A stretch of 64,000 bases of DNA. Origin: Ascidia mentula. Taxonomy: Eukaryota > Chordata > Ascidiacea > Phlebobranchia > Ascidiidae. The stretch is taken from positions 16,568,001 through 16,632,000 of the forward strand of contig OX387201.1 of NCBI GenBank assembly GCA_947561715.1, written 5' to 3'. The notes under the pieces are model-generated. The model was not told the DNA's origin, searched no databases, and saw only the letters and a list, made by a program, of their open reading frames with translations. A program made the position numbers and the translations under genes. The stretch's first letter is position 1. Each line of letters starts with the position of its first letter. Of the stretch, positions 1-39,800 are shown piece by piece.

Positions 1-688
1 TTTTTTTGACTATAATCATAGTCGTGCAAGTAGTCTTCAAATTATGACCTATAAATTTTCATTCGGCACAGACTGGTTTCAAATGCGTAACAGTCTGTGG
101 AGTTGCATACCCCTGCTGCATACCATAATTCTAAGGTGCACAATATATATACAATTTAAGTTTTGTTCCGCAGCACACAAAAAATGGTTTACACTGAGAA
201 AAGCGCATGCTATTGCAACTACGACACCACTTTTGTCCCAGTCTCTTAAAGTTAGGCAAATAAAAAAGGCACTTGTTTCCTAACAATGTAACTTGTTTGG
301 TAACAATGGCAAATTTAAGCACGGCAATCTAATGCACAGTGCATTATGCACTTGGAAAACAGATTTCATACAATACATGTCAGTTTACCAACATTCCCGG
401 TTATTTACAGCTTTAATTTCCACTCGTACCAAGCGCGTCAACGTGTCGCAGTGCAAAATTAAGATTGTGACCAAATAAATGAAAATTTGCGGGGGGACAT
501 GGACCACAGTCAAACATTATGTTTTGTGTAAGGTGGCAACAACATGATTACTTCTGTGGCTTTAACATTTTTAAAAATGATCCAGGGACAACATTGATTA
601 ATTGAACAGCAAGGTATGAATTGCAGAGAAATCCGTGTATTTGAATATTTACCATATAATTAATGAATAAGCAGTGTAGACAAAGTAT
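1..688. other. 3' flank of CDIPT, no gene seen
   Basis: This AT-rich stretch lies downstream of the CDIPT stop codon and probably includes its 3' UTR. Short open frames occur on both strands, but none has recognisable protein features or splice-linked partners. Confidence 0.5.
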
Positions 689-3600
689 TTATTTTTGTTT
701 GTTCCTTTCATCTGCATCAATAGTTGCCAACCTAACTGAAGCGTCAACAAGATGAATCAGACTGATCAAAGCTTTTACAAGCATGATGGGTGTAGAGATG
801 TACAGTATCATACGGATGACACTTATCCCCAGCACTGCAAGAAAAATAAATATTTGTGTGAAACCACAGGTTCAGGCCAGTGAGTTTCAGCAGGTCACTG
901 TGATAACAATGCATGTGACGCCAAAAAACACAATGCATGTGACGCCAAATAAAGCAGCATGACCTATGTTACGATCCACCGAAACAAGCTATGACTGTTT
1001 TCATACCCAATGGTCCTTCAGTAAAATGAAGCAGATAAAGCATTGTAAAGAAGAGTTCGTTTCCAGCACACATCACAGATAGCACTGGCTGAAATAAAAA
1101 TAGAGTTTTTAATAACTGGAATATACGGTTTAAAATCTCCAAAACATCTATTGTTAGTTTTTTTTTAATTTCTGTAATTTTTTTGTCAAAGATGTCTTAA
1201 AATTGAAATATTTATTAACGTTTAATGGTCAGAGAACAATTAAACATTTCACATAAATTGTAGCATTGTTTTTACTTTAAACAACACCCAACGAAAACTC
1301 CACCCTTAAAAGTGTTACAATCATGTACTGTAGTCCTAAACTTTTGTTGCCATGCAACCAACCCTAGAAGTGTAGTAGATTCTCATGATTGGATTGCTGT
1401 CCAACCCCATGGCCTTGTGACTGGATGTTCCTTTCATCAAAGATGTGTGCAAATGCAACCAATGGCTGACAATGTCCAAAGCAAGACTAAAATTGATTGA
1501 AAAGTTATACTTAAAACATGATTTTGTGATGCTATGAAGGACGCATATTGGTATTTCTATCAAAAATAAGTTTTGGTGCTGGGAAATGCCCACCGTGTAT
1601 ACTTTTGTCACAGTATAAATTTTACGTTAGAAAGCAAACCAGTAATGCATATAATTCAATTTTACAGTTGAATGAGCGAACATGCGTGTGCTGTTGCCAT
1701 CGTGATTTTATGAAAGATCCATCCCAGATAAACAAAAATGATCAAAATTAGTCACTAGAAAAATGGTTTAGCCACCCCCTGGGGGCATTTGCCCCCTGGT
1801 TAGTCAATATTTTGAATCAAAAAGCAACAAAATTGGAACTGGATTTTGCAGAAAAATAAATCGTTCAACTACCCACTCATTTGCATTTTTTGTAAGTTCC
1901 GACTCTTCTCTATGAAATGGCATTGAATTTAGTTGCTGAAATAGTGCCAAAGCCGCCCCCCACCCCCAGGGCTGTTTATGCCCCCTGTTGGTCATAAGAC
2001 CTGTAGCAGATAATGAAAATTGTATTTTATCGCTTTTGTTTGTTTAACCTACATTCGTTTATTAACGCATGTCACTCTTTAATTCGCCTTGTCTCGATTT
2101 CCGTGCGTTATTAATCTGATAAGCCCGCTCTCGCACGTGAGAGAAATTCATCTTGATCACCTTCTAGTGATCGGAATTTTCCGCTGACCAAAGCCTTTTG
2201 ATTTTTTTGTAATCTACGTTTGTTGGATTTACTCGAATCATTGAAATTGCATCTTTTATTGTACTCGAATGCTTTAATAATTTTAATGCAACCCAGTAAT
2301 TACTAATTGCACAGTGTTGGAGTCTTTTTGGAGTCATAGTCAGGTTTTGTGTTATCTCTGAGTAAGCATATCATAAACCCTACAGACCTTCCAGGAGGCT
2401 TAAGTCCTTTCTCTGTACAGTCTCATCCTGTAGCAAAATATTTTTTCTTAACTTTGAAGAATTTTAGGTCCCTATGTAAGTCACAAAACCCATCAACGGT
2501 CATTGGGAAACAAGCGGAACAGTCGCTAGATGCATTATTGCAGAGGGCCTTGAAAACGGGATTTCTCCAATTTAATACACATATAGGCCCTTAAGTGCAT
2601 TTTGTTTTACATAGACACTGTACAGGATAGGTTTTCACAGTAATTTTCGTCTCAAACACTCAATGTTGTCTCAAACCATGACAGTGTTGTTTAGTGCGTT
2701 TTTAACAAAAAAGCCCATACAAATGTTGTTACGGCAAGCAGCAAAAAAAGTTTTTATAATTTGGTTAAGTAAGAAACTTAATCTGAATCAATTGTGACAC
2801 AACAGAGAAGCCAAAATCTTCTACCAAGTCTGACAAGATTATTGGGTTTCACAAGACTCTGTTATTCCAACTCGAACTGTTAGATTACTTGGAGAGGTTG
2901 AAGTTGCAACAACGCTAAAATATCCCAAATGCGTCTAATAGTAAATTTTATTGCATTGGGGATACTAAAAGCGATCAAATTATTTTTATTTTTTTGTAAT
3001 TGAATGTTATACATATATATCATTTTGACCCAAAAGCATGCAGCCTAAAGAACTTTTTACACAGTGGTAATTTCTCAAATTTTGTAAGCATGAATCCTGT
3101 TAATTAACCCTAGTACACGATAATGAGCATTGGTAGTTTTTTTTTATGTTTAAAAAGTTAAAATAAAATATAACAACAAAAGAAGTGAATATAACATGAA
3201 CGATAAAGACAAGTTGCTTGAACTAAAGTTAAAACTTTTTTTGCTGAAATTAAAACTTTGTGAACACACCGCTATGACTGTGTTTAACTTATTTAAAACA
3301 CTGCCAAATAGGCCTGTACAATAGGTAAATCACAAAAATTAATTTCACAATAAATCCTTGTTACCTCAACTGAAGCCATAGCATATAATTGGGGTAAAAG
3401 TGTGCAAGAGTAACAACCAGGCAAGCAGTGGCAGCTCGATCCGTCAACTGATCAAGCATTGCACCAAAGTTTGTAACCTGCATATAAACATTTTTTAAAT
3501 TAATTTGAAATGCATAAAAAGCAATTTACAAAAAAAATCCTGTACATAAAAACTTTTTATGAACTGCAATGAAAATATAAACCTGATTCAGCATGCGAGC

Positions 3601-4137
3601 AGCATGACCATCAAACTCATCCAAAAATCCACTTAATAGGTAACAAGATGATGCCATCACATAATCAAATGGCATATAATAAAATGAAGTGATGGCAAGA
3701 ACAATTCGAACATAACCTGAAAAAGAAATAGTATCGTATATGACAAATGTTGTATGCCAGCCAATAAAGCCACTCAAGATTGGAAATAAACTCTATATAC
3801 CCTCCGCATAATTTTGCAAAGATAATCTACAAAATAAAAGGTAAATATAATGAATTTACTAACCGCACAAAGTTAACTTAACGCACAATCAACAGTAGCA
3901 AAAAAAGTTACAAACATTTCAATCTAAATTCCATACATCAACTTTTTTAATTTTACAACAAAACAGATTTTTGAAAACATGCAGATACGGGAGTATTATA
4001 GTGAACACTGCAAGTTGATTCAATTAACCATAAAAGTATATTTTTGCCGATTAGTAAATGTAAAAAAATGAACAATAAAAAAACTCACCAATCAGATTCG
4101 GAACAAAAAGAAAGATGTTCGTTGCCGTCACTGCCAT
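689..4137 (-). CDS. CDIPT: CDP-diacylglycerol--inositol 3-phosphatidyltransferase (phosphatidylinositol synthase)
   Basis: This enzyme joins CDP-diacylglycerol and myo-inositol to make phosphatidylinositol in the ER membrane. The CDS has six exons: 4137-4089, 3716-3583, 3477-3365, 1486-1363, 1088-1007 and 834-689. Phases close to 215 aa, against about 213 in human. The N-terminus reads MAVTATNIFLFVPNLIGYVR. Exons 2-3 carry the CDP-alcohol phosphotransferase signature D-x2-D-G-x2-A-R-x8-G-x3-D-x3-D, seen as DEFDGHAAR followed by GAMLDQLTD, so all catalytic Asp residues are present. Exon 4 encodes the conserved SHWLHLHTS and RIYYTSR stretches. The last exon ends in a lysine-rich tail (DERNKQK), as in vertebrate CDIPT. 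The start is the only ATG that puts the conserved LFVPNLIG motif at the N-terminus. Intron 3 is by far the largest (about 1.9 kb). The family call is nearly certain. Confidence 0.96.
1760..2000. repeat. Imperfect inverted GC-rich repeat in CDIPT intron 3
   Basis: A segment around 1770-1800 with 'ccccctgggggcatttgccccctgg' style composition is echoed near 1950-1995 by 'cccccacccccagggctgtttatgccccctg', in an AT-rich intron. The remainder of the intron (about 2000-3360) is plain AT-rich sequence. It may be a small non-autonomous element, but no ends were resolved. Confidence 0.35.
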
Positions 4138-4336
4138 ATTTCTTATGTGTAAAACAAAGCGAATTATTCTACAAGCACAGAATTTTTTTAGAAAAATAAA
4201 ATTACGCCCGTTCACTAATGAGACTCGGTATTGTGGCAACACGCATGATTCTCTGGCCTAGTTCTGACCACTCCGCATATTTGCTGAAACTCAGGACTCA
4301 ACACTAGAACATCAGACCGAAAGGACACAGGCGGAC

Positions 4337-5574
4337 TTAAAGTGCATATGACACGGCCATGACAACTTTGCGTAAAACTAATGGTACACCTATACAACAA
4401 ACATATATCCAAAGTTTTTCGGTTATACGTCCACGAAAAAATGTAGAAAACTGCACAAAAAGTAGCGGCAACCAGAAATCGTGGACATTTTTCGCTGTGG
4501 CGAAATTGACATCACACAAGGCGCTCGCGTCGAAAAAATGCATTGTTTAGATAGGAGAAGGCGTCATTTTTGCAGATATCGAATAGTTTCAAACATAGGA
4601 GAATCCACAGATTACGTTACCTCAAGGTCCGGACAAGATTTTACATCACACTAAAATATATCGCTTGATCATCGGAAAAGCAAGGGTATAGCAGCAACGA
4701 CACTATACTCTGTATTTCGATAAGACGGGGGTGGTGCGTGTCTTTGCTCAGTGACATTACATGACGTCATTTTGGGTGTGATGTCACAACTCTAACCTCA
4801 TCTATCTGTAAATTCTAATTTGATGATTCCAATATTTCTAGTTACAACTATATTGCGAAAAATACATTAGTGGTTGATTGTGGCGAATTAAATAAATCAT
4901 TTATGACGCGAACTCGTAGGCAACGCTACTGTCGGAAAAAAAGTGGTGCTATAAGAGTGTTGTGTTGCTAATTTGGTCGTTATTTTCAGCGGTCTTTGCC
5001 AGCCTCAAAATTAAATTAACCTACTTTTATCTTTTGCTGTGTGTGGACAAAACCGCAATGCTAAATTGACGGTTTGTCTTTGTCGTGTTTGGAAAAAGTT
5101 CATGTGTCAGTGGTAACGTTAGCGATCATAAATGCTATAAAAACAAGAACACCCTGTCCCAGTAATTGTTTTATTATTACACAACTAAATAAGACATAAT
5201 AGGTCGAAACAGCGGTCATCTGTCTGCAGCTTAAATTAACATCAAAATCCGTTTGTTGCACTTGTTCACTTGTTGTCGCCTGTTTTGTACAGTACTATAC
5301 TAAACCAGTTTTACAATGTTATCCATTCCTACGCATAAGGCTTGCTGCCAGCACTCGCACGACCAAAGCGCCTTCTATGACGTCACGCAACAATAATCTC
5401 GCTTTCGCTCGATTTCGTTCGCAGCGGTTAAATTGCGACTTTGATCAGCTGTTTCTCAGAAACCAGTCGTCGTATGAAGTTACTTTTTGCGCCAAAAATA
5501 TTTTGAAGTTACGAACATCTCTTAGTTTATTTATCAACACGTTTTATTTTTACGTGTCAGCACATGCACTTTAA
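4337..5574 (+). mobile_element. TTAA-flanked non-autonomous DNA element, copy 1
   Basis: The element starts TTAA-agtgcatatgacac (4337) and ends ...gcacatgcact-TTAA (5574), so its termini are inverted repeats and the flanking tetranucleotide is TTAA on both sides. No long open frame or transposase was found inside, so it is non-autonomous. A second copy in reverse orientation is at 11718-12891 and a truncated direct copy starts at 7340. TTAA target choice is typical of piggyBac-type elements; that assignment is inference, as the terminal bases are not the usual piggyBac ones. Confidence 0.7.
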
Positions 5575-9149: not shown

Positions 9150-11200
9150 TTCTTTGTAGGTTGGGTCTGATCCCTTTCCGTCGAACATACAGAATGTTGT
9201 CTCTCCGTCGCGTAGACACGTCCCAGAAGAGGACTTTATACAACAGCGAATTGTTTTGCCTCAGTCTGTGGCCAGAAAGTTTGATGGTGATCCGTTGAAC
9301 TACTGGTCATTTGTTCGTGCTGTTGAGTCCCATGTTCATAGCCGAACGAAGTCTCAAGATTCACGGCTAGTTTGTTTGCTGCAAATCTGTGAAGACTTCA
9401 TTGCTGTTAAACTTGAGATCTACAGTAAGGGTAAGATCTCAGGATACTCAAAAGCCCGTTCCCGGCTTGAATACGATTACGCACAACCCCATATTATCGC
9501 TAACGCATGTGAGCGCCGACTCAAAAAATTTCCGCCAGTCAAGCAAGGTCGACCAAAAGACCTGATGGAATTATCTGACCTGAGCTTGCTGAGTTCTCTC
9601 ACCTCAAGGACCCCTGCATCGTTTGGAAGGGGAAACTGTGACGATACTGATCGAAGCCGATGTTTCTGCAGCTTTCCACGTACAGTGTACACGTTCTGGA
9701 CCGCAGGGGACCCCTTGTGCTGTAAAGACAACTCATGACTGGTCATTGTTTGGTCCCGCACTTGGTTCGTCTGCAAGGAGCGAAGCACATGTCCGTTTTC
9801 TAAAGGTTGCACAAGTCATGTTCCAACGGGAGACAGAGTGTTATCGAGAACGACTTTGGCGACGGGACATCAGTATTCGACATGCCCACATCAAGGGAAG
9901 ATCGAATTGTTTATAACATGATGAAGGCATCGGTGAAGCACCAAGATGGACATTTTGAGCTCCCAATACCCTGGAGACCTGAAATCGAAAAGTTGTCACC
10001 CAGCCGCCAGAGGGCGGAAAAGCGACTGGTCGGTTTGTAAAAACGGTTGTCCAACAACGATGTTCTGCGAAAGGGATACGTAGACACGGTGCAAACGTAC
10101 ATATCCAAAGGATACGCTGAGGAAATTCCTGACAACAAGGTCGTGACAGATAATCGCATCTGGTACTTGCCGCACCACCCAGTATTTGACCCACACAAGC
10201 CTGACAAACTTCGTGTGGTCTTTGATTGTGCTGCCCGAAGCAGAAGCGTCTCACTGAACGACGCACTGATGCAAGGTCCTCATTTTGTACACGGTTTGGT
10301 TGGCGTGCTAACCCGTTTTTGCTGTCAGCCAGTTGGCTTGATTGCTGACATCGAGGCAATGTCCCACCAGGTTCGGGTGGAACCCCGTGATCGCGATGCA
10401 CTTCGATTTCTCTGGTGGCCCGGTGGAGATCTGACCTGTAAAACCGACGCCTCGCCGGATGAAAGTGCACATATTTGGTGCAACGTCCTCTCCGAGTTGC
10501 GCCACCTTCTGTCTGAGGCAGACTCCAGATTTATTTGGTAAAAACTTCGATCCACAGGTTGAATCTGTTCTACGGTGCAATTTTTATGTGGACGACTGCC
10601 TCGCATCCGTCAACAGTATAGAAACTGCTATTGCTGTTCGTCTTCGTTTGAAAGACCTGCTAGCCAGAGGAGGATTTCGCTTGAAAAAGTGGCTCTCTAA
10701 CGAACAACGCGGTTTGGAGTCGGTTCCCGAAAATGATCTAGCAAAGGTTGTGAAATCGCGTTGCCTCGATGATGCTGCGCAACAGAGAGTCCTTGGTGTT
10801 CATTGGTCTGTTGCGGAGGATGCATTTCTGTTCAAAGTCAAACTACCGAGCAGGCCGCACGCGCGTAGAGGAATCCTTTCAGCTGTCAGTTCACTTTACG
10901 ACCCTCTGGGTTTCGTATTTCCCGTCTATAAGCGCCAAGTTATTGCTGCGGAACTTATGTAAACTGGAACTTAATTGGGATGACGACATTCCGGATTTGA
11001 CATCCGATAACTGGAAGAGGTTACTTGCTGAGTTGCCTCACTTAGGCAATGTTGTCGTTTCCGCGAGGTCTTCGGCACTGAAACCTCCATTAAAGTATCA
11101 ACTACATCATTTCGCTAGTTTACTGTGTACTTGTAGCAATGTTGCTGAATGCTTTTCATTTATCGAAAGCATTTTTGCTATTAATTTCGTGAAATGAAGA
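9150..11200 (+). mobile_element. Degenerate BEL/Pao-type LTR retrotransposon (gag-pol remnant)
   Basis: Reading frames in three phases on the plus strand resemble a BEL/Pao polyprotein. The 9256-9590 frame carries a gag-like core with KFDGDPLNYWSF, usual in the DUF1759 region. Around 9620-9800 there are scraps of the region between gag and RT. The 10047-10541 frame has a Pao reverse transcriptase N-terminal part (LRVVFDCAARS, RDALRFLWWPGGDL). The 10459-10962 frame holds the YVDD catalytic box and the following A17-peptidase-linked segment ending DPLGFVFPVYKR. Homology continues in another frame to about 11090 (LNWDDDIPD). Stops and frame changes near 9735, 10040, 10540 and 10960 show it is dead. 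No LTRs, integrase or target duplication were found. It sits between the two opposed TTAA elements. Confidence 0.8.
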
Positions 11201-16264: not shown

Positions 16265-19200
16265 ATGATTTTGCCGCCGAAAATACCAGTGCGTAAATGC
16301 TGCAGGCTTGTGGCACCTTCAATTGTGATTGTAATCACAGGATTGTGGTATTTTTCTATCTTGTACCTGAAGTTTCAGGCGACAGCTTTAACTTTTCAAC
16401 TGGAGAACATCGCATTGCAGGTTAGTCGAAGCTTCACATTCAATGCTCGAACATTGCAAGTCAACTTGGCTGTAAATCGAATTGGAAAATTACATTCTGC
16501 GTGCTTTATCACGACCTACATTAACTTGGTTATCTGAACCGTGTTTCGAAGTTTACTTGGTACCAAATCATACAAAAGCGCACAGAATGTTCATAACAGT
16601 TGATATCAGGTATTATTGTGTGTCTATAGCGGGAGATAGCAGCATCAGTAAATACCCAAATCCACATGTGATTTTACGTCACTTCGTGTTCTAAACTTTT
16701 ATCTCAGTCTTACAGAGGGGCAGTGGACATACGACCCTACTAATAAACCCTGTTTTGGAACCGAAAAATAATTCCACATTTTTCTTGTTTGTTTTTGAGC
16801 AGTCGAAATCCACCAGAAGCGAATCTTCGTTCTTAACAAGGCGGTTAAGCGACGTTTCTCAATCGTGGAGCGACAGCCGGATTTTACTGAGGGACGTTTT
16901 AAATCGAGTTTCTAAGGAACGCAAACTGATCATTTGGGGCATTGAAGAAGATGAAGAAGACGGCGATGAGGTTTAAGACACGATAACACACACAATATAT
17001 AGAGAAAATAATATTTTTATTGAGTTGTGCATATATCACATGTTGCGTAATTTTGTAATCGATATATTCCTGCTCTTTCGGCAAAACTGGGAAAGATAGT
17101 ATTTAAACCCACGTTTCAAATAAATCAGTATTTCGATTATAACTTAAAGAATCTTTTCACTATGCGCAAAATTGGCTTTTTGTATGCTACATAAAACGGG
17201 CGACGACGTACTGAAGATAATTATCTTAAGCTGTATCTACTTAGATTTTGAACGAAAGTTTCGCAAAAAAACTGTGCGGGACAAAGCTAACATTTTTTGC
17301 TAACTTGTATATTAAAAAGGGTCATTACACGTACCATGTTTCATAAAATAAATTTCAACGCTAATACGATGACTGTGCCACGCAGAACAATTTGATTGAA
17401 CTTCTTGCCGATCTTTATGACGTAACAATTGACCCCTCAGACGTGGATGCAGTGAAACGCGTCGGAGTTTACCGAGGTCACGTACCAAGGCCGCTTTTAA
17501 TTTACGTCACAAACAGCCACGTTAAAGTAAGTGTGATGGTTTTACTCGCAGAAAACGTGTATGTGACAATATCATTTTGTAGGACGTGATGTTGGGGGCA
17601 ATCGCAAATAAAAAAGAGCACCCTTTAGATGCACATGATTGGCCAATTCAACGACTGGAAAGATTCGATGAATCTCAGCAGGCTTGTTCAATGCACATAA
17701 AGGTTGTTGTCTATGCTTTCGTGCAGCAGTATAATCAGCAGTAATTTTGTGGTCGGTTGTTGAACAAAAACTACTGGAATTCAATAGTCTGTTCTTCTGG
17801 CACATTAAAAACGTAACTTTATTCACCAACGTTTCGCCTGTTATACAACAAGGCTTCCTCAGGGTAATGATACAGCACACAACCCACACCAGGGTAATAG
17901 TACACCACACAACCAACACCAAGAAAACGCACCAACACGAAAAAATACTAATGGTTTTGAATGCGCATGAATTTGCTCTCATTTTTACCACCATTATGAC
18001 CAACTTTTGCTAAACTCATTTACAACTGGTAGAAGTTAATTATTTAAAAACATAAAAACAAAAACCAGTTTAATTGATTTACTAAATTTACATCTCGATA
18101 TAATTTACAATCATTATAACTTTTTTTAGAGTGTGGGTAAATTTCAACTGTTACGTCACACAGAAGAAAAAGTTGGAGCCATCCTTACTGACGCATTATC
18201 GCCGAACGAAGACGACAAGCCGAATAACAGGTCAAATTACATATAAAGCGACACTCCAAGTGCATTTGGTTGTGAATTTGAAGTAATTTTCCGCGTAACC
18301 TTAAACAAATAAACACATGTTGAAAATTTCAAGCGGAGTGCATAAAACGTCATGGCGGGAAGGTAGTTGACCATTTATCGGAGCAGTTATTTTAAACACG
18401 TCACAGGCTCCTCTTCATACATAACATAGAACGCCTGCGTTATAGTTATCATACTACATTTTATTACATTCACCTTTTCCACAGGACGAAAGAGCGGTTT
18501 TGGATTGCGCACAAGCCCTACGGCAATCGCATACTTCTGGAATACGATAGGTCTGTTTATTGTAAAGGAATGTAGAGATACAAAATATTTACAACCTTAG
18601 TTTTTAATATTCAGTTGAAACAAATGAATGAATTAAATTACATATGTGTTGTCCATTCATTTTGTCTTTATAGCTTAGTTATGTCTATAGACATGTGGTG
18701 GATATGCTTTAATTTTTCTTTACCTGAAAAAAAATAATTTATATTAACATTGGAGACAATAACATGTGGTACAAATAGATGCAGACAGGGCCACTGCTTC
18801 AACCAATTGAGGTTCCATCCGTGTAGCTGATGTCTTCGTCTGCCTATTTAGCTGACAATAACAATCAAGTTATATACACTGAGACATATTGGGTCGAAAC
18901 TGTGGCCCCGTCTGCAGCTCACATAAAAATACATTGTTTATTGGGTTTTAGATATTAGATACCCGGGATACCCAGGGTACCGCTAAACTAAAAATAACTC
19001 TCTAATTTTCATTTTACCAGAGCAACATATTTTCTTAACACTTCGCAACCGATTGCAAATTACACCCTTCCCTACCCATGGGGTGGTACGAGTCACGTGG
19101 TTTTGGGCGGTTACTTCTTCTACGTCAGAGCCAAGTCCAACTTCATCGTCAAGTGAGTGGGATGCAAATTTCAGTGCTTTCTCTGTTTAAGTTCACGACT

Positions 19201-20449
19201 CTCAAACACAAATAAAGGTTAAGACCAAACCAAATAACATTCACAACTTTTTGTTTTAATATAGAGCGATATTTAAATTCCAACCTTCAGAAATAAAATA
19301 GAGTAATTATTAAAATTGAAGAACACCTTGACAGTTTATTGATTTTACTATATATGTACAAAGCCTAATTTAAACACTTTTTGCTTTAACTGGGTTTGTG
19401 GGGTTATTTTTTACCTAGATATGACCTTGAGAATCGACGAATGGTGAGATATCGCCAAATCAAGGGTGCCAAGTACACGGAGAAAGATAAAAACGATGCG
19501 AATTGTGCTTTCAGCCACATAAAATACTCAGACATCAGTCTTCACGTAAGTAGAAGGCACTTTTCGAATTTCATTAAATATATTGCCCCAATCGGTGTCG
19601 TTCGAACAAGAAGCATTTCTTGTGCTATTCTTGCTGCCTGGCATAGTAATTGATGAGAATTGTTACCACGTTATCGTTACTACATAATCCTGAGAAAGCC
19701 GGATGGTGGACGAAACGTTGGTTACAATGAACATTTGCCAGAAATGAGCATTTCGCAAAATTAGTTTGCAAACAAGTTTCATATTTTGTTGTTTTTACCC
19801 CTAAAACGAAGAACCTTGTAATGTAATTTGGAAATACTCGTTACTTGACATGGTCGGACATTACGAACAGATTGATGAGTTTGGTTTATGGGCGACGTAC
19901 TGCACGAGCAAAGGAGATATGAAACTATCTCTGCTGGACCCCGATTCGTTGAAAATTGTGAAGCAGTACGACACCGGGTGGCGGAAAAGCTGGTTCGAGG
20001 CAATTTTCGTTGCGTGTGGCGTGGCTTACGCCGTTAGGAGGTTCGTTTTTTAGATGTTTAAATTATTTTTTTATAACAGCAACGATTTTTTATTTATACC
20101 GCTAAGAAAATGGAATGCCTAGTGATTATTATTCAGTTGTAATCAGAAGAGTTAAACAACACATAAACTGACTGCCGATGAAGACATAGAATATATTAAC
20201 CAACTACATTTGTTTTGAGTTAGATTCCAAACGGCCCCATTTCTTCAAATAAAATACACCTACAATACCATCCGCGAGGAATCTAGTCATCCGCTTGACG
20301 ATGTGACTGTGGACTTACATGGGAAAAACCAAGGCCAGATTATGCATCTCAACTATGATCGCATTGAAAAACGGCTCACTGTGTGGACCAGCTTTGGTGC
20401 AATAGGATGGTTAAACGTTGAATTTAAATATGCATCGGTACCTAAGTAG
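16265..20449 (+). CDS. Type II membrane protein with L1-ORF1p-like RRM and olfactomedin domain
   Basis: Nine exons (16265-16420, 16803-16970, 17386-17526, 18130-18230, 18485-18550, 19021-19152, 19419-19545, 19871-20040, 20224-20449) close in phase to 428 aa. Residues 1-15 are basic; about 16-35 form one hydrophobic segment (VAPSIVIVITGLWYFSILYL), so a type II signal-anchor is likely. Residues 36-95 look helical. Residues 96-185 resemble the RRM-like domain of LINE-1 ORF1p: KLIIWGIEEDEEDGDE, then DVDAVKRVGVYRG, RPLLIYVTNS and finally VGAILTDALSPNED. From about 190 to the end is an olfactomedin domain (LPYPWGGTSHVVLGGYFFY, FIVKYDLENRRMVRY, IDEFGLWATY, FVACGVAYAV). Colmedins such as gliomedin have the same TM-stalk-olfactomedin plan, but with collagen in the stalk. 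Exon phases are 0 throughout the stalk and RRM, and 2 in most of the olfactomedin part. No N-terminal olfactomedin cysteine is seen. The domain calls are firm for olfactomedin, good for the RRM. Confidence 0.85.
17583..17702 (+). other. Possible 120-nt cassette exon in the olfactomedin gene
   Basis: A phase-0 open segment bounded by ttttgtag before 17583 and GTTGTT after 17702 sits between exons 3 and 4. It would add 40 residues (begins DVMLGAIANKKEHP) inside the last helix of the RRM-like domain. Skipping it gives the better domain match, so it is excluded from the main model. It may be an alternative exon, or read-through from exon 3 intronic sequence with a stop at 17742. Confidence 0.3.
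17825..17865. repeat. Short repeat fragment shared with 19685-19725
   Basis: 'ttcaccaacgtttcgcctg' followed by 'cctcaggg' here is the inverse of 'tgagaaagccggatggtgga' plus 'cgaaacgttggt' near 19683-19717. The two lie in different introns of the olfactomedin gene and look like ends of a small mobile element. Confidence 0.4.
18775..18925. repeat. Small hairpin-forming dispersed repeat (GGCCACTGTTTCGACC family)
   Basis: A left arm 'gcagacagggccactgcttc' near 18781 is mirrored by 'gaaactgtggccccgtctgc' near 18897, giving a ~140 bp fold-back unit in an intron of the olfactomedin gene. The core occurs elsewhere in the window (about 26540, 27945, 33095, 45770, 56945). Confidence 0.6.
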
Positions 20450-20535: not shown

Positions 20536-20541
20536 AATAAA
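20536..20541 (+). terminator. Poly(A) signal of the olfactomedin gene
   Basis: AATAAA lies 87 nt after the stop codon in an AT-rich 3' flank, a normal position for polyadenylation. Confidence 0.6.
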
Positions 20542-21071: not shown

Positions 21072-24017
21072 TCAAATTTCCAGACTGGTATCGATGGTGA
21101 ATGTACGAGCAGCATTGTAAACAGCCAAAATAAGCAAAAACGCAATAAACTGCACACAGCTCGACAGCGCCATGTAGCGGAGGTGATCTAGCGTGGTCGG
21201 AATGCCGATGGAGGGCAGTGGTTCTACTACAAGGTCGAATGTGACACGGTAAGTGCGATCGTCGACACAAGAGACTCTGCGTCAAATTATAAAACTCTGT
21301 TGATAAACCACATCTATTGGTATAGACTTTATCAATCACTTCAAAAAATGCAAATGTTATCGTATACTGAGTAAGAAACTGATGCCTACTATACATAGGC
21401 GGATTATTTCTAAACTTACAAATCAACTTACGTTAGTAAGAGGCCTAAGGTTTTATCAGTAGATGCCTATTGTTCAAAAGGGTTACAACAACCCAGTCTA
21501 ATATACTTTGGTTTAATGTTCATGTTTCAACATTTTTTGCAGTAAATTATTCTTTTGATTAGTACACGTAACATGACCAATTACAATGACTAACAAATGC
21601 CAAACCTACAGTTTTGTATTGGTATAAGTCGGGTAACGTATCTCTACTTCGTTTTTCTTTTAGTTTCAAACACCAAGACGTTTTAAGCTAAATTCTCTTG
21701 ATTGACACTCTTTTGTAAAAGACTGACTTTTGTAATGTGAAAAGTACACTAGTTTTCGCGATTTTCCCTCGCTTCGTCAGGTGTAAACGAACACAATGCG
21801 ATACAAAAAAAAACAAGCGCAAGGCGGTCGAAGAAAAAAGGCTTGTACACATATATAGACTGATACGGCACGTTTAATAATTTTAAGACGTTTTAGTATC
21901 AAGGCAAATTTCGCCTGTCTTCGATGAAGTAAACCTTAAATCTGTACCTTATTGTGCCTCCATTTGGCTTTTGCACGTTGTTTAAAAGCAAGGTGTTATC
22001 TTTGTCGACGTACATCGCCCTGCTTTTCGCGTAACCAAAACTGTAATCATTTCTCTTCAAGGTCGTTAAGCTTCGCTCCCATCTGACGGTCGACCGCACG
22101 GTGGCGCCAGGGCGACAAGAAAGCCTGACGTTGGCGTAATTGGTCAAGTCAATTCGCTTTTCACTCAGCTTCACTGGCTCTGTAAACCACAAAGAAATAC
22201 GATTGGAAGATGCAATGATTTCTTTTACAAAATTACGTATACGTGGTGGTCACTTTGCAATCGTTCTTAGTCGCAAAAGTCAAACATCTGAACGTTTATG
22301 CCCGTAGGCCCAATTGGCGAACGATATCCGGCGCAAACAAGAACGATACGTCACATAAAGACCACTTCTGTACAGGTTTTTACATCAAGGACAGGATTTT
22401 GTTTTGAATAAATATAGAGGAAGGTTGTTAAATCACCAGTAATGGTTAAGAGCTCTGCTAAATTTGGAAAATAAAATAATGATGAATTGGCATGACATGC
22501 TTACCTATTGGTTCAATGCAATGGTCATAGCACATGTCCACCAATATTTCCTCTGGTCTGTTTTTTGCTGCAGGCCGAAGGAAAATGGGGACATCCTTTG
22601 ACTTGCAGTGCTCCTCGCCGTCCAAAGTTCTCACTCGGCAGAACCCGAACCTATTTCACATTATGGTTTTGGTTCATAAAAATCACTGTTAAACTTTAGA
22701 AAAGTTTACCTTCTTCGTTCTCCGTTTCCCTGACAACCGTCGCATTTGGTCCAATCGCTCCAATGCATGAACACTTTAAACTCATTCATCACCTGTGGCA
22801 AAAGATGAGTTACTTTGTGTTTTCTAAGTTGCTATACTTGAGTGTACGGTTGCATTAGTAACATGTATTCCACTATTTTACCCCAAGATGCAATTTAGAG
22901 GAACTGCTAATACATTCCAAGAATTGCCGCAACGTTACAAGAATGGAGATAAAATCTGCTTTTTTTTCACGTTTTAAGATTACGGGTAAAAGGTTTTGGA
23001 ACATACTGTGTCATCGTATGGAGACTGTCCTCTCGCCGTAAGAATGTATTTCATCTTTCCAGGGTCGTGAACATCAACCTTCCTAGTTCCAAATATTCTT
23101 CCATCGGTTACACAATCGTATCGCCCTTCACGCAAAGAAAAAATTCATGATAATAGAAATCATAGGATTGTTTGTTTGTACATTTTTAGCGCGATTTCTA
23201 AAATGGGTGCTGGATGTGTAGAATCAATATATATTACCCATGTATTGTGTTTGTGCAATAGGCCCACTTAAAGGTAAAGGATTTTGTCCATGATTTGATT
23301 GTGTTTTTGTAGTTGCTTTAGTAAACAATTTGACTTATTCCTCGGTGACTCAAACATGACAAAAAGCAACTCTAATTGTAGATTAATGTACGCATGACAT
23401 CCTAACCTAATTCTGCTGGGGGTTCAAGCGCAAACTTTTGCGATAACCTGGCGCAAAACTACATAGAGTACCTGAATCAGATACCAGAGTCGATGCAATT
23501 TGTAACTTTAGTAAACTGTTGATGTTGACGACTTCCACACGATTATCGGTTTCATCGTTAGGTCGATAAACTTGCAATCTTGAGTCATGGTAACTGTTAA
23601 TAAACAGAAAAAATACCATTCCACGCCTTGCAAGTAAACTAAATGAGCTGGCGAGATTAAATCAGCAGGCTAACATTTGCAAACTGAGACTGCACCTGTA
23701 ATTAATCATCAAACTGCAGTTGACTGCAGGGCGTTGTGGTGAAAACGGCAAACGGTGGAAGGTCGCGTGTAACTTAATTATAAATCTTACAGCAGACGGT
23801 GCTCGTGGAAATTTACACAAACAAAAAAGAGTTACCTGTAGAAGTTCCAGTACGAGTGTTCCGTTGTCGTTATTTCGCAGGTAACTGTCAATGGTTCTTG
23901 TACAAAGATATCGAGCAAAGTAGAATTTACGTCTGCCGGGACCTCCTCGCCGAAAAAGAACGAACAAGTTACATGCAAATTTACACCAAACAGCAGTAAA
24001 AACGCAACGTTGGCCAT
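21072..24017 (-). CDS. FAM187: FAM187-like single-pass membrane protein with two Ig-like domains
   Basis: Seven exons (24017-23836, 23593-23472, 23125-23007, 22792-22710, 22650-22505, 22179-21948, 21276-21072) close in phase to 362 aa. A signal peptide (MANVAFLLLFGVNLHVTC) starts the protein. The first Ig-like part has the VTCEI strand, the YWNFY tryptophan and the DSGRYDC motif. A cysteine-rich joint follows: WSDWTKCDGCQGNGERRRF, then FCRVR. The second Ig-like part runs from VRLSCRPGA through VRWERS and LLLNNVQ to GGTIRVSC, split by an intron between the R and the C of the last strand. Residues CVQFIAFLLILAVYN form the membrane span, followed by a short tail. The order Ig, W-x2-W-x2-C joint, Ig, TM and the length fit FAM187A/B. 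The Ig and TM calls are firm; the family name is from memory of its layout. Function is unknown. Confidence 0.75.
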
Positions 24018-33800: not shown

Positions 33801-36800
33801 CACCTGGTCTTCCAACTTTACCCTGCAATGACACATAATTTAAAACCGCATTACTCAACAGGTTCTAGCATGGCGCCATCAGTATGCCGTGTGCTGGTTT
33901 TGTGTTGTGCTAATCAAAGGTGGCATCATGATTGTACAAGATAACGCAGCATCACGTATCTTAAGATATGTTCTGCCGAAACCAATGTGTCATACGTACA
34001 CACGATGCAATTATAAACTTGGCATACGTGAAATGGATAATTATCGCAAAACCAATAGCTAGCAAAAAGAGCTGGGTTGGTTTGGCATTTTTACATTACA
34101 ACACACAGATAACCTGTGTACCAGATGGACCACGTTTTCCTTTGGAACCCCTGGGACCTCGTAAACCCTGCAATAAAAATTGAAAATTACATCCATTTTA
34201 TGTGTCTAAGGGTACGCGACAGAAATGTACTTACTCTTATGCCAGGTACCCCTCGGTCGCCTCGTAAACCTCTGCTTCCCTGAACACAGGTTTTTAGGTT
34301 AAATTGCTTTATGCTTGAACAAATAGCTTTACTTGTTAGGGTAATTCAAACAGTGGATATCTTATTATGATACAAAAAGAAAAAAAGATTAAGCTGAAAC
34401 TCAAGCATTTTATTGAAACTTGCGTCTTGTTCGATTTCTATTTGCAATCCCGCTGCCACAGCTCATAAAGTTTACTGCAATGCGAAACAACTTTCCACCC
34501 ACCCGTTTTCCCCTTCTTCCTCGCTTGCCAGGTATTCCGGGATATCCAAAATCACCCTAATAAGCATGTCGATATTCAGTAAACAAGATTTTTTGATAAA
34601 AGGATTTCATAGCAGCAGTTGCACAACAGTATTACACCTTGGTCTGTAACATTGGCAATTGTTTGGGATCGTTACAATAAGCGACCCTATAATACCTCTC
34701 ACATTTTACAACGATTTTAACTAAGGTTGTCATCAGCGGGCTATAGGACAGGAGAAAGACACCACTTGAAAGTACTCACTGTTATTAAACAGAGGTGAAA
34801 CACTACACAACAGCAGGAAGTGTTTCACCTCGCCTCGGAGATAAGGGTCAATCGAGGGCCCTGAGATATCCCATAAGTTTGACAGCCCGATTTGGTCTAT
34901 TACATATGTCCGTGCTGAATTAACGCCAAGCGACGTCAAAGTGGATTCGTGTCGCTCCACTTTGACCTTCAGTGCCATTGAGAAAATACATGTCACAAGT
35001 ACCATGGCCAGAATTACATAACAAGACCGAGGTAATGTAGATTTAACGTATTCCTTAGTTATAAAAACAAAATCACAAAAACATCCAGAAGCCAATGTGC
35101 CACCGAACAAAAACAGTTGTAAAAGATATGACAGAATTTCCCGCTTTAATTTCCTATATTGCTGCTTTATTGGAAATTGTCATTTGTGGAAAAACGTTTA
35201 ATGTTTGTAAATCCAAGACTCACCGCCAGACCTTCCCTTCCTTTAGGGCCCTGAAATCCTCTTTTTCCTCCCTCGCCCTTCAAAAAAGAAGAATTTCTCG
35301 AAAACAACGACATAAAACAACATTCCGTATTTCTGTTGTCAACAGTGAGTTGGCGGGGATGACAATAATTCTCCCTACTCTCTTCCCTTTCTGTCAGCAA
35401 ACTTCTCGAGCTGCCCATTTTGTTTGGTATGTCGACAAAACGTGCGGAGGCATGGCGCGTGCGACTTGCTCTCTCTTATAGGGTGCAGGAAGGTAACAAA
35501 AAGGGTGATGCCCTAACGAGGAAATGGGCGGTCTTTGACATTCGGGGTATGTTTACATGTAATGAGCTTGACCTTCGCCGTGAAAAAATATAACCGCAAA
35601 TTACTCTTTTCGTAGACATCCTCATTACTAATCAGCCATAAAACTGACGTGGGTGTCGTTTTACGTAATTTAAAACATATGATTGCGTTGATTACCTCGC
35701 CACCACGTAAGCCTGGGTGACCCTGTGGCCCCGGGGGGCCGGGTGGCCCTTGAGGCCCGGTAGGCCCTCGAATGCCAGGACGTCCACGACGACCCATGTT
35801 ACCCTGTAATGCAAAACAGGATAATTAAGCTCGGTAAAACATTCGCCAGTAACTACATTTTTGTGTTTACAAGAAATACACAGGCAAGCCCCATCTAAAA
35901 CACAGGTTGGTTCAGCGACGATATGTATCGTTTTCGTGTAACAAACATTTCATTTGAAAAATGCAGACGGTTCCTGACTAATGACATGGAAAAATTGTTG
36001 CCTGGTTAGGTTTAGTTGTTGCAACAAACCAAGTCCAATAAGCCAGCAGACTACCGGAGATATAATCTTACCTGATCTCCTTTAAATCCTGGCATGCCGG
36101 GAAGGCCTCTGCTTGCTCTTGTCCCCTGTGAAACACACATGTGTGTTAACATATAGGTGTCATTGGCAAGAGGGAAAGAAAACTCAAGTGGAGTATTAAA
36201 TGATTTTGATGTTTCAGGTTGTTAAACTTGTCTACCGTATGTATGAAATTGCCTTTTAGGCGCGCGGGAATGCATTCTTTCCGTCCCGTGCAGATAGCAT
36301 GTTCTGCCCTTTCTCTTTAATCACTTGGTTAGATCTAATGGTTGATAGCATATACTTTGTGTATCCTGTATCTGTTGGCGCCCTAATATGATTACTTGCA
36401 GTGGATTGGCATACTTTTTGTTCAACAAAAGTTAGAAATAAAAATTTAATATGGATTTTCCCCAGGTAATTTTGTTGTAAGCCATGTAAGGTATTTTCAA
36501 ATGCGTCAATTTCAGTGATAAATTTTACGTAACCTAATTTACGTAACTGTATACCAGGTGTTTGCAGTGTTTCACCTTATTCAACAACCCGATGACATAT
36601 CTGTCGTCTAAAGAAAATTTTCAAGCTTAAGCATTGGGGATATAGCAGACTAAATGGATATTCAAAGAGCTTTTTAAGCTGATCCTTTTGCATTCCTTCG
36701 ACCACGGCGAACAACTGTATGGAATCAATACGTAAACTTACAACTCCACCAGGTTCCCCTCTGACTCCCTTAAATCCACGCAGTCCTTTACTTCCGGGAG

Positions 36801-39800
36801 GTCCTGTTTTGCCTCGTTTACCAGCTTTGCCCTTAGTGCCCTTCAAGTTCAATAGATTTGATTGAAACAATGCGAAAAATGTAAAAAGCACCATTTGCCA
36901 ACTCATGCAGTTGGTGTATACGTTGTCATAAAATACCAGCATATTTCTAGAGTTAGACCTAAACAACAACCCCTTGAAACAATACAAGTGCCATAAATTC
37001 AAAACTTATTGCATGTTTATGGGTTCAACAGCTTCCAAAGCATTCAAATGGTTCCCCCTCCCCCCAAAAAATTATTTGTTTCTTGTCAACTAGAGTTGTC
37101 ACACGGACGGTGCCATTTTAAGTGTATATGCGATAGCGTTACAATGCAAACAGCGAAACAAACGTCACTAAGTGCCGTCTGCAAATTGTTACTTACTGTT
37201 TGTCCTTTTCTTCCTTTGACGCCATTTTTACCTCGCCGTCCCTGAAAAACGCTGCTATTGTTTGACCACATTTTTTGCCACTCATCAGATAAGCAAAACA
37301 GATACACACATACAACAAAATAATCTTTATTTTTCTATCAATAACATTTTAAATACCTTAACTTATACCTCATAAAATTGCGTTTATGAAAATGAGCAAA
37401 TTTGTCGTGAGATGTAAATGGTTGATGAAACGGGAATGCTGATAAAGGTGGGCTATTACCCAAACGAACACTGCTAGGTTTGTTCACAGTGTTGGAAACA
37501 GATTGGTTATATGAGACATTTCTGCGGTGGGTCTATTGCGCTTTTGTATGGTTTTAATTTATCTTCTGACTTCAGATGTTTGCCAAATTTACGGTCGGAA
37601 TTTTCTCCTGTACCCACAAAACACATATATTTCACAACTTTGTTTGACCGAATACTGCCCTTCACGGAAGTTCAACAATCATAGGTGGAGTAACCCGTGG
37701 CCGACAAAAGGTGGCTTTTCAAGGGATTAAAGTGACAGATCGGTGGCTTTTAAGCGTTTTTGTGGCACGAGTGGAACAAAGAGCGACTTTCAGTCAGCAC
37801 ATATATCATTTTGCAACGCAAGAAGTGTTTTGTCCGTTAATGCCGAGGAGTTTATGGCCATCAATTTGTTTGAGGTCGTTTTGTTTATTCTGAAGACACT
37901 GAAAACTCTTTATTGAGAGAGAATCCTGGCAGTGAAATAACATTGCATTAATATAATAAAAAGTACCAAGTGCTGTGGCAGGCTGTCAAAAAGAATCGCA
38001 TGTAATATTTCTATGTGTGGTCGAAAGCAGCGACCTTTACCACACTTTATTATCAATCAGGAAAAAATTATGCTTAATTTAAAATGGTTTTTACTTTTTC
38101 CGACGCTCTGACAAAGCTTCAACCATAATTACTGCAAGTGTGTTTCGACTATCCCCGAAAAACTTGATTCGTTGCTTCAGTATCCTAATTTAGTATCCAT
38201 CATAATACCTCGTGGTCAAAACCTATTTTTAGTTTTCAGAATCCCATTGTAATTGTGTAATAGGCAATTTGACTTTGTGCACCATTACAAAGCAGCAAGT
38301 TCCATTTGCTTGTGAATATCGCGTTAGTTTCGCGAACTAACCTGACTTCCTGGTGGACCGATCGGTCCCCTCGGTCCTTCATCTCCTCGTTGTCCCTGCG
38401 AATAAGGCATGTGGTGTGAGAGGGCACCTCAAAAGTAAATGTTAAACGGCATTTATGATAAACGAGCTGTGTGACATAGAGCCGAAAAGGTTCAAAACCT
38501 TCCTGCGTTCGGTGGCGATTTTACATTTTACGCTTGACCCGTTTCGAAACCATGTCACAGTGAAATAAGCAGACACACCGACACGTCATAATCCTGTTAG
38601 AACCCGAGGTCGGTTATTTAACGATAGGAAAGCACTCCAAGGTCAAGTGCAGGCTAATCCCTTGGTAACATTAGGTGTGTGTTTACCTGGATCCCTGGGT
38701 GCCCTCGTAATCCTTCCGGTCCCGGGTCGCCCTGAAAGACAAATTTTAGATTTTTCACTCATTTATTGAGTGGAATTTTGAGGAAAAACGAAATTAGAAA
38801 TTCATTCCTTTATGCTACGTAAAAACCGGATCCACCATTAGTTAACATTCCTTTTCCATTTAGGTTTTCTCCAAATACAATTTTGGGGTTGCGAGACCCG
38901 AGATTTGAGGGCACGTTTCTTGTTTTGTTAATTATTAACAAGTAAGCTACCACTGGAGAGGTCGATAGCATAACATTTTTAAAATGGGGTCGTAAAACAA
39001 AAAGTTTGAGACGCCCTAAAATAAAACATCCGAGTTTTTCACTTTATTGTTGATAGTAACTGAGAGTTAAAAACAACGTACCTTTGTCCCATTGCGACCT
39101 GGAGGACCCGCTGTGCCTCCAATACCTTCATTTCCCTGGGAACATAAAAACAGTGTTAAAAAACGACCATACTTTTAGCAATTGCATCAAGTTTTACCAA
39201 TGAGTTATTTCTCGCAATGACAACAGGCATAATGCGAATGGAGCTGGTACAGTATGTGCACTAAAATCCATTTGAGTGTTTCTTGTACAATGACAATATT
39301 ATAGTTAACTCACCAAACGACCTGGCGGTCCAGGTGGCCCTGGTAATCCAACCGGTCCCTGCCAGAATATATACAGATTTAAAACAATATAAAAAGATAT
39401 TATCTATTCTGTTTACGCATGTAAGGCAACGAAAGGTCAGCCTAGACAAAATAATATCGAATTTAGATAACAAAACTTACCATTTCTCCAGGTAAACCCA
39501 AGTTGCCTTTAGGTCCAGTATTTCCAGGATATCCCTTGAAAATAAAAACATTTATTTAACAGTTAGTTTTAATGACAACCATACAACTACGTTATATACT
39601 CTTAACCTTTACAATGATTATTTGAAGGATTTAATTTGCATTCGAGAAGTACATTTACAAAACCCATGAGGGTATAATGAACGAAAAACATACTTTAATG
39701 CCAGTAGATCCTCTCTTTCCATCTTTGCCCTTTACACCCTGCAGTAAAAATCTGTTTGATATTTGTGTAGTCGAATAATTTTTTTGCTATATTACCTTGT

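Follow-up and report, generated by a model that had tools for sequence, protein, structure and literature searches.

The locus

The DNA analyzed here, referred to as the window, is a stretch of 64,000 nucleotides from the ascidian Ascidia mentula (contig OX387201.1, forward-strand positions 16,568,001 to 16,632,000), and it holds a gene for an olfactomedin protein with an unusual middle domain. The gene, on chromosome 5, is an open, splice-consistent frame on the plus strand, running from an ATG at 16265 to a stop codon that ends at 20449, with 10 exons that encode 468 amino acids (aa) (Table 1). All nine introns are GT-AG, GC content is 0.42 to 0.51 in the exons and 0.28 to 0.38 in the introns, and an AATAAA lies downstream of exon 10 at 20536 to 20541. 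Read from genomic sequence, exons 1 to 10 very probably form a single gene. Between a hydrophobic N terminus with a polar stalk and a C-terminal olfactomedin (OLF) propeller, the encoded protein carries a domain that is almost certainly homologous to the RRM of the first open reading frame (ORF1) of long interspersed nuclear elements (LINEs). A second gene with the same arrangement, L024, lies on chromosome 9.

Table 1. Exons of the window gene (positions in the window) and location of its paralogue
Feature	Position	Strand	Content	Basis
Exon 1	16265..16420	+	Start codon, short basic N terminus, hydrophobic segment (likely signal anchor), start of stalk; residues 1-52	Open frame; donor CAG/gttagt, phase 0
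Exon 2	16803..16970	+	Stalk; first RRM strand (KLIIWGI), followed by acidic loop; residues 53-108	Phase 0 both sides; aligned to ORF1 LEQYGRRDCLEIKGIP
Exon 3	17386..17526	+	RRM helix 1, strand 2 (DAVKRVG), strand 3 (PLLIYV); residues 109-155	Phase 0 both sides; introns on either side agree with L024 in position and phase
Exon 4	17583..17702	+	RRM helix 2 and linker to propeller, with Cys190; residues 156-195	AG/GT, open, phase 0
Exon 5	18130..18230	+	Start of olfactomedin domain, contains AILTDALSP	Pfam OLF from residue 194; noelin alignment
Exon 6	18485..18550	+	Olfactomedin domain	Pfam OLF
Exon 7	19021..19152	+	Olfactomedin domain	Pfam OLF
Exon 8	19419..19545	+	Olfactomedin domain	Donor CAC/gtaagt; SDISLH/IDEFGLW aligns with L024 TDIDFAVDEFGLW
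Exon 9	19871..20040	+	Olfactomedin domain with Cys386 (VACG)	Pfam OLF
Exon 10	20224..20449	+	Last part of olfactomedin domain, stop codon	Open frame
L024 gene	C73:4004000-4013999 (chromosome 9)	-	444 aa, 8 exons	

OLF, the domain named in an earlier sequence-only reading of this DNA, is the sole Pfam family in the window protein (145.6 bits, E value 2.6e-42, residues 194 to 450; family cut-off, 23.9), and the OLF domain of L024 scores 281 bits. The closest solved structure to the window domain is noelin (5AMO, E value 1.3e-25), followed by myocilin, latrophilin, and gliomedin. That reading had also proposed the order of transmembrane segment, stalk, RRM-like domain, and olfactomedin domain. 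The order stands, with a hydrophobic N terminus, a polar stalk, a profile match for the RRM, and OLF all in place, and it is the domain boundaries that had to be redrawn: the motif AILTDALSP, taken at first for the final RRM strand, belongs to the first part of the OLF propeller, where it aligns with GSWMTDPLAP of noelin and GCWMRDPFLS of L024. At the N terminus, the best 19-residue Kyte-Doolittle mean is 2.11 (residues 15 to 33), and on this basis the protein is probably held in the membrane, or secreted, through its hydrophobic segment. The stalk between this segment and the RRM shows, by eye, no stops or helix-breaking pattern. No collagen family was found in the Pfam scan of the window protein and L024.

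The propeller itself departs from what is usual. In noelin, Cys221 joins two chains and Cys227-Cys409 closes the propeller (PMC4463452). A corresponding closing pair, sought from the first propeller residue to the Cys of ACG/ICG, leads in the window protein to Cys386 and Cys190, the latter lying opposite the Cys at the end of the noelin coiled coil (RAC), not opposite the first Cys of the propeller, and opposite Cys186 of DCREL in L024. The calcium triad described for Olfm1 (Asp356, Glu404, and Asp453; PMC4463452) is a usual, not a defining, feature of OLF proteins. In the noelin alignment, and subject to the assignment of residues to columns, the first Asp of the triad would be Ser (SDIS) and the last Asn in the window protein. 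The position of myocilin Asp380 is described as highly conserved across the phyla surveyed (PMC6719662), so that loss of calcium-triad residues at a conserved site, as the alignment suggests, makes the window propeller unusual as well.

An ORF1-type RRM in two olfactomedin genes

The middle domain of the window protein covers approximately residues 89 to 175, from the end of exon 2 through exon 3 to the start of exon 4. Against a broad ORF1 profile of 72 proteins in 76 stretches (66 relatives from one protein search and 6 ORF1s of this genome), it scores 16.0 bits with a per-comparison E value of 5e-7. None of 20,000 composition-preserving shuffles reached this score (18,431 had a reported score, the highest being 12.0), and among 944 open reading frames (60 aa or longer) taken from the window and 14 loci, 794 of which were scored, the best was 8.8 bits, for the frame that holds window exon 3. 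The RRM of L024 matches the same profile with 34.7 bits (E value 8.7e-13; best of 20,000 shuffles, 16.8). Compared one to one, the two RRMs are identical at 18 of 71 positions (E value 6e-7), and as a pair they align with the ORF1s in a profile-profile comparison by hhalign (probability 96.7, E value 4.3e-10; at most 7.3 in 300 column shuffles). When the genome was searched with the L024 RRM, 21 places matched, 3 of them L024 itself; the other 18 each overlap a place detected with the ORF1 of the LINE at locus L033 as well, and no canonical host RRM gene was among them.

L024 repeats the layout of the window gene: a hydrophobic start, a helical-looking stalk, an RRM divided by exon breaks into NYVRIKGVPEKTNELLEEK, IVELADFINVHITIDDIERANRIGVKRRNGARAIVAQMSSYK, and IKQQLIREAAAPFRNLEFTIQDDA, and then OLF. 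When the two proteins are aligned, those introns that divide the RRM fall at columns 121 and 168 in the window gene and at columns 123 and 166 in L024, all in phase 0, and LINE ORF1 copies are without them. At the OLF border, the junctions lie at column 218 (phase 0) and column 211 (phase 1), respectively, and within OLF no intron of either gene is within 9 columns of one in the other. Because both RRM introns are shared by the two genes and lacking in LINE copies, capture of the domain would have preceded duplication, and the intron positions suggest a single capture followed by duplication and later intron changes in OLF. Seven OLF loci were examined in the genome, and the RRM is present in these two of the seven. 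Each of the remaining five was read over 10 kb without an RRM being found; the best stretch there, a 32-aa open reading frame at L023 with 7.0 bits, was taken as noise. A tree of the OLF domains of the seven loci is unresolved.

The sequence-only reading had looked to a direct match with PF02994 (Transposase_22), and none appeared for the window at an E value of 10 or below; the L024 RRM reaches 15.0 bits over profile positions 25 to 81 of 98, below the curated cut-off of 22.4. PF02994 had no matches in the genome as a whole, nor in control genomes, so this search is uninformative. In a protein database that appears to be poor in animal proteins, the full window protein yielded 4597 candidates, none with an E value of 0.01 or below, and its RRM alone yielded 9, none at 10 or below, which is no sign that the gene is missing from other tunicates. 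As single RRM queries are weak, it is from profile, paralogue, and shared introns taken together that the case for homology draws its strength.

LINE ORF1s of the genome and the bridge to L1

LINEs are abundant in the A. mentula genome, which was searched as 195.8 Mb in 79 contigs (the published assembly is given as 197.0 Mb in 95 scaffolds; PMC11109543). In the reverse transcriptase search, 150 of 1254 candidates were scored, so the LINEs listed are a minimum. Fourteen LINE loci of 10 kb were read, and four of them (L032 to L035) contain an ORF1 of the pattern LEQYGRRDCLEIKGIP...DISISHRL...PPTIIAKF..RK.RD. In these ORF1s, Pfam assigns the C-terminal part to Baculo_FP_2nd and, weakly, the RRM to Baculo_FP. 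The proposal of an L1 ORF1p-like middle domain is thus upheld by the ORF1 profile and the paralogue in its general sense and revised as to the family: by sequence, the close relatives are the Baculo_FP/Baculo_FP_2nd-type ORF1s of LINEs in the same genome, not L1 itself.

These ORF1s can nonetheless be tied to L1. When 64 of the 66 ORF1 relatives were aligned and compared to solved structures, human LINE-1 ORF1p came first (E values of 5.3e-7 and 1e-6), in a match that includes the coiled coil and is followed by many coiled-coil proteins. An AlphaFold2 model of one relative, P0001 (mean predicted local distance difference test score, 93.9), shows a long helix and then strand, helix, strand, strand, helices, and strand. 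Foldseek with this model placed LINE-1 ORF1p in positions 1 to 11, ahead of canonical RRMs, and position 11 is the ORF1p central domain alone (2w7a, E value 2.4e-3). Type II ORF1, composed of coiled coil, RRM, and C-terminal domain (CTD), is described from the L1, CR1, L2, and R1 clades (PMC4120745), and in L1 the coiled coil is reported to trimerize ORF1p and carry the RRM, with RRM and CTD binding RNA jointly (PMC5940361).

Repeated ORF1-like sequences were also seen elsewhere in the genome. At L044 (C70:19.52-20.92 Mb), an array of dozens of degenerate ORF1-like copies with internal stops looks like an amplified segment; the one stretch of it that was read has other gene-like pieces beside these copies, one of which we take to be USB1-like. 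At L043 (C71:10.39-10.63 Mb), ORF1-like pieces recur approximately 900 bases apart, with a frame resembling reverse transcriptase and GIY-YIG downstream, presumably Penelope-like. Both arrays were considered as host gene families and set aside as probable degenerate or amplified elements. At L035, a long tandem repeat on the reverse strand (284-5128), open in one frame, stands directly before the LINE copy.

Charge and possible function of the putatively captured domain

Both olfactomedin RRMs retain most of the hydrophobic columns of ORF1 (23 of 26 in the window and 24 of 26 in L024), in an alignment to which the two rows had been added and which therefore leans toward a match. The G and the R after the H are kept in both. 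Four other strongly conserved ORF1 columns, R (70/71), H (72/72), K (65/72), and R (71/72), have become E, K, Y, and S in the window and K, N, Q, and Y in L024. In overall charge the two copies are far apart, with an isoelectric point (pI) of 4.7 and a charge of -9.6 for the window RRM, and a pI of 9.9 and a charge of +4.3 for that of L024; six LINE ORF1s have pIs of 9.6 to 9.9.

With its hydrophobic core kept and its pI acidic, the window copy appears to have preserved the fold and lost the charge for RNA binding, and nucleic acid binding has probably been lost from the window protein. RNA binding outside the cell, already thought surprising when the domain was first noticed, is unlikely for a protein that is acidic and without the conserved basic residues. 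Since the window RRM is acidic, a structural role as a stalk seems likelier than RNA binding, and we lean toward it. Neither the window protein nor L024 has the ORF1 CTD (Tnp_22 CTD or Baculo_FP_2nd) in the Pfam scan, and OLF follows the RRM in its place. Nor does the window gene resemble a LINE in having a downstream ORF2 reverse transcriptase or multiple copies: its RRM finds only itself in the search, and what follows is OLF.

Exon 4 and neighboring features

The sequence-only reading had nine exons and 428 aa, with a junction 17526/18130 that skips exon 4 (17583-17702). Exon 4 comprises 40 codons, begins 56 bases after exon 3, is in phase 0 on both sides, and has as its counterpart in L024 an exon of 121 bases. 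The alignment of the window protein to the ORF1 profile extends into exon 4, and the end of the exon aligns with the junction of coiled coil and propeller in noelin. The 428-aa model keeps the frame but was rejected, as L024 has this exon and its omission cuts the helix after strand 3. The profile scores differ little (12.6 bits for the whole protein with exon 4 and 11.1 without; 15.4 for exons 2-3-4 and 13.7 for exons 2-3-5). Since the frame is kept with or without it, exon 4 may be an optional cassette. A 489-aa model, with exon 8 extending to 19549 and exon 9 starting at 19812 (OLF, 127.9 bits), was replaced by the present one with donor 19545 and acceptor 19871, which gives 468 aa and the higher OLF score. 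In L024, the first intron has an apparent GC donor (AAAG/gcaagt, 6413/6414 on the reverse strand).

Other features were noted in the window. Close behind the olfactomedin gene, on the opposite strand, is an immunoglobulin-like exon (21899-22249, minus strand; Pfam ig, 19.9 bits, just under the cut-off), followed by a hydrophobic stretch at approximately 21072 to 21281. A collagen-like Gly-X-Y stretch lies at 36577-37005 (minus strand; Pfam Collagen, 23.5 bits, under the cut-off), and retroelement frames lie at 9160-10962 (plus strand; RVT_1, 18.0 bits, under the cut-off).

Origin of the domain and alternative explanations

As a whole, the data are best explained by a LINE RRM captured into an olfactomedin protein, duplicated with its gene, and serving a structural role, an explanation we consider likely. 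Several observations weigh against it. Queried alone, the window RRM has no Pfam match and no ORF1p among its PDB matches, and at E values up to 10 it finds no LINE in its own genome, its four matches all being to itself. For the L024 RRM, the unrelated and sub-threshold families Bin3 and Scramblase rank above PF02994 in Pfam, the nine PDB matches are to designed proteins only, with no ORF1p among them, and the 18 LINE matches are individually weak (E values of 0.007 to 6.6), many being near-copies of one another. In an unrooted RRM tree of 73 rows, the two genes fall on one side of a branch (94/91) and not inside the LINEs, and the window branch is very long (3.47) with unsettled bootstrap. 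Finally, the N terminus of L024 is weakly hydrophobic (Kyte-Doolittle, 1.27) and may be a signal peptide.

The absent Pfam match and the weak single-sequence match of the window RRM would also be expected if a short alpha/beta domain happened to follow the ORF1 pattern, as would its 7.6 bits against a narrow profile of the six ORF1s of this genome, since superseded by the broad one, where 16 of 20,000 shuffles score as high. Chance is scarcely credible, given the score of L024 with the ORF1 profile and the two intron positions that the genes have in common. It is also very improbable that two neighbors, a transmembrane-RRM gene (exons 1 to 4) and an olfactomedin gene (exons 5 to 10), were wrongly joined: although intron 4 is 427 bases long and the gene model was drawn from genomic sequence, in L024 the parts follow one another in the same order and frame, the plus strand has no AATAAA between exons 4 and 5, and the noelin alignment spans the junction of these exons. 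The RRM tree, unrooted and without nesting of the two genes inside LINEs, does not show the direction of transfer. The proposal that a LINE module was captured as host exons is borne out in that the RRM occupies several exons between N terminus and OLF and recurs so in L024. An old host RRM-like module could have been donated to LINE ORF1s, or both could descend from a common ancestor, in keeping with the tree and with the introns that divide the domain in both genes. We regard this as improbable, because the whole-genome search with the L024 RRM gave only LINE ORF1s beyond itself, and because type II ORF1 spans several LINE clades (PMC4120745) and the domain is found in just two of seven OLF loci. 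Movement from LINE to host is the simplest reading and, in our estimate, likely.

As to function, the RRM might still bind polyanions, in L024 and perhaps weakly in the window protein, and through contacts with nucleic acid or sulfated glycans outside the cell could tether or cluster the protein in the matrix. In favor are the basic charge of the L024 RRM and its closer agreement with the ORF1 pattern; gliomedin fragments, moreover, are reported to associate with heparan-type proteoglycans (PMC4206993). We nevertheless think such binding unlikely, since in the acidic window RRM most of the basic positions conserved in ORF1 are gone, and since the CTD, partner of the RRM in RNA binding (PMC5940361), is absent from both genes. 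With still less probability, L024 could bind extracellular nucleic acid or polyanions as a sensor or matrix anchor, the acidic window copy being its partner or scaffold, maybe in mixed oligomers formed through the shared stalk.

Under the capture explanation, an ancestral olfactomedin gene would have acquired the RRM-bearing stretch of a LINE ORF1; the reverse transcriptase and the ORF1 CTD are absent. Duplication after capture would have produced the window gene on chromosome 5 and the L024 gene on chromosome 9. Stalk and RRM would together act as a folded and probably oligomerizing spacer, filling the place of the collagen of colmedins or the coiled coil of noelins and making the five-bladed C-terminal propeller accessible to a partner on the cell surface or in the matrix.

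Comparison with known systems

Few host genes are known to stem from LINE ORF1, and those found in the literature are L1TD1 and the fungal EKA genes. In the open-licence literature, we found no report joining olfactomedin with an ORF1 domain, which is not proof of novelty. If the explanation holds, a LINE RRM that serves RNA handling can be turned into part of an extracellular scaffold, here within an olfactomedin protein, and the difference in charge between the window and L024 copies makes loss or retention of RNA binding directly testable.

The two genes resemble type II LINE ORF1p (human 2YKO/2YKP, Baculo_FP/Baculo_FP_2nd, Transposase_22) in the order of strands and helices in the RRM and, judged by eye, in a helical-looking stretch just before it. 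They differ from it in having neither the CTD nor an adjoining reverse transcriptase, in being divided by introns, and in the fusion of the RRM to a propeller behind a hydrophobic N terminus; the window copy, moreover, is acidic. Colmedins and gliomedin have a membrane segment near the N terminus, a stalk, and an extracellular C-terminal OLF (PMC4206993), a layout to which the hydrophobic N terminus, stalk, and C-terminal OLF of the two genes would correspond. Colmedins are described with collagen between membrane and propeller (PMC4206993), whereas the window protein and L024 have an ORF1-type RRM there. Noelin (Olfm1, 5AMO) is the best structural match for the window OLF, in an alignment that reaches into the last part of its coiled coil, but noelin is a secreted protein whose coiled coil is long and which lacks an RRM.

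Two cases of domesticated ORF1 are comparable in origin. L1TD1 of placental mammals is a host gene derived from LINE ORF1 (PMC4161310), and in 2014 it was called the only known host gene almost entirely derived from L1 (PMC4161310). L1TD1 is almost wholly ORF1 derived and binds RNA, while here a single RRM would have been added to an existing tunicate olfactomedin protein. The EKA effectors of powdery mildew likewise are described as genes formed from part of a LINE ORF1 (PMC4641428); they are fungal, have more than 1,350 homologues among LINE copies, and carry no olfactomedin domain.

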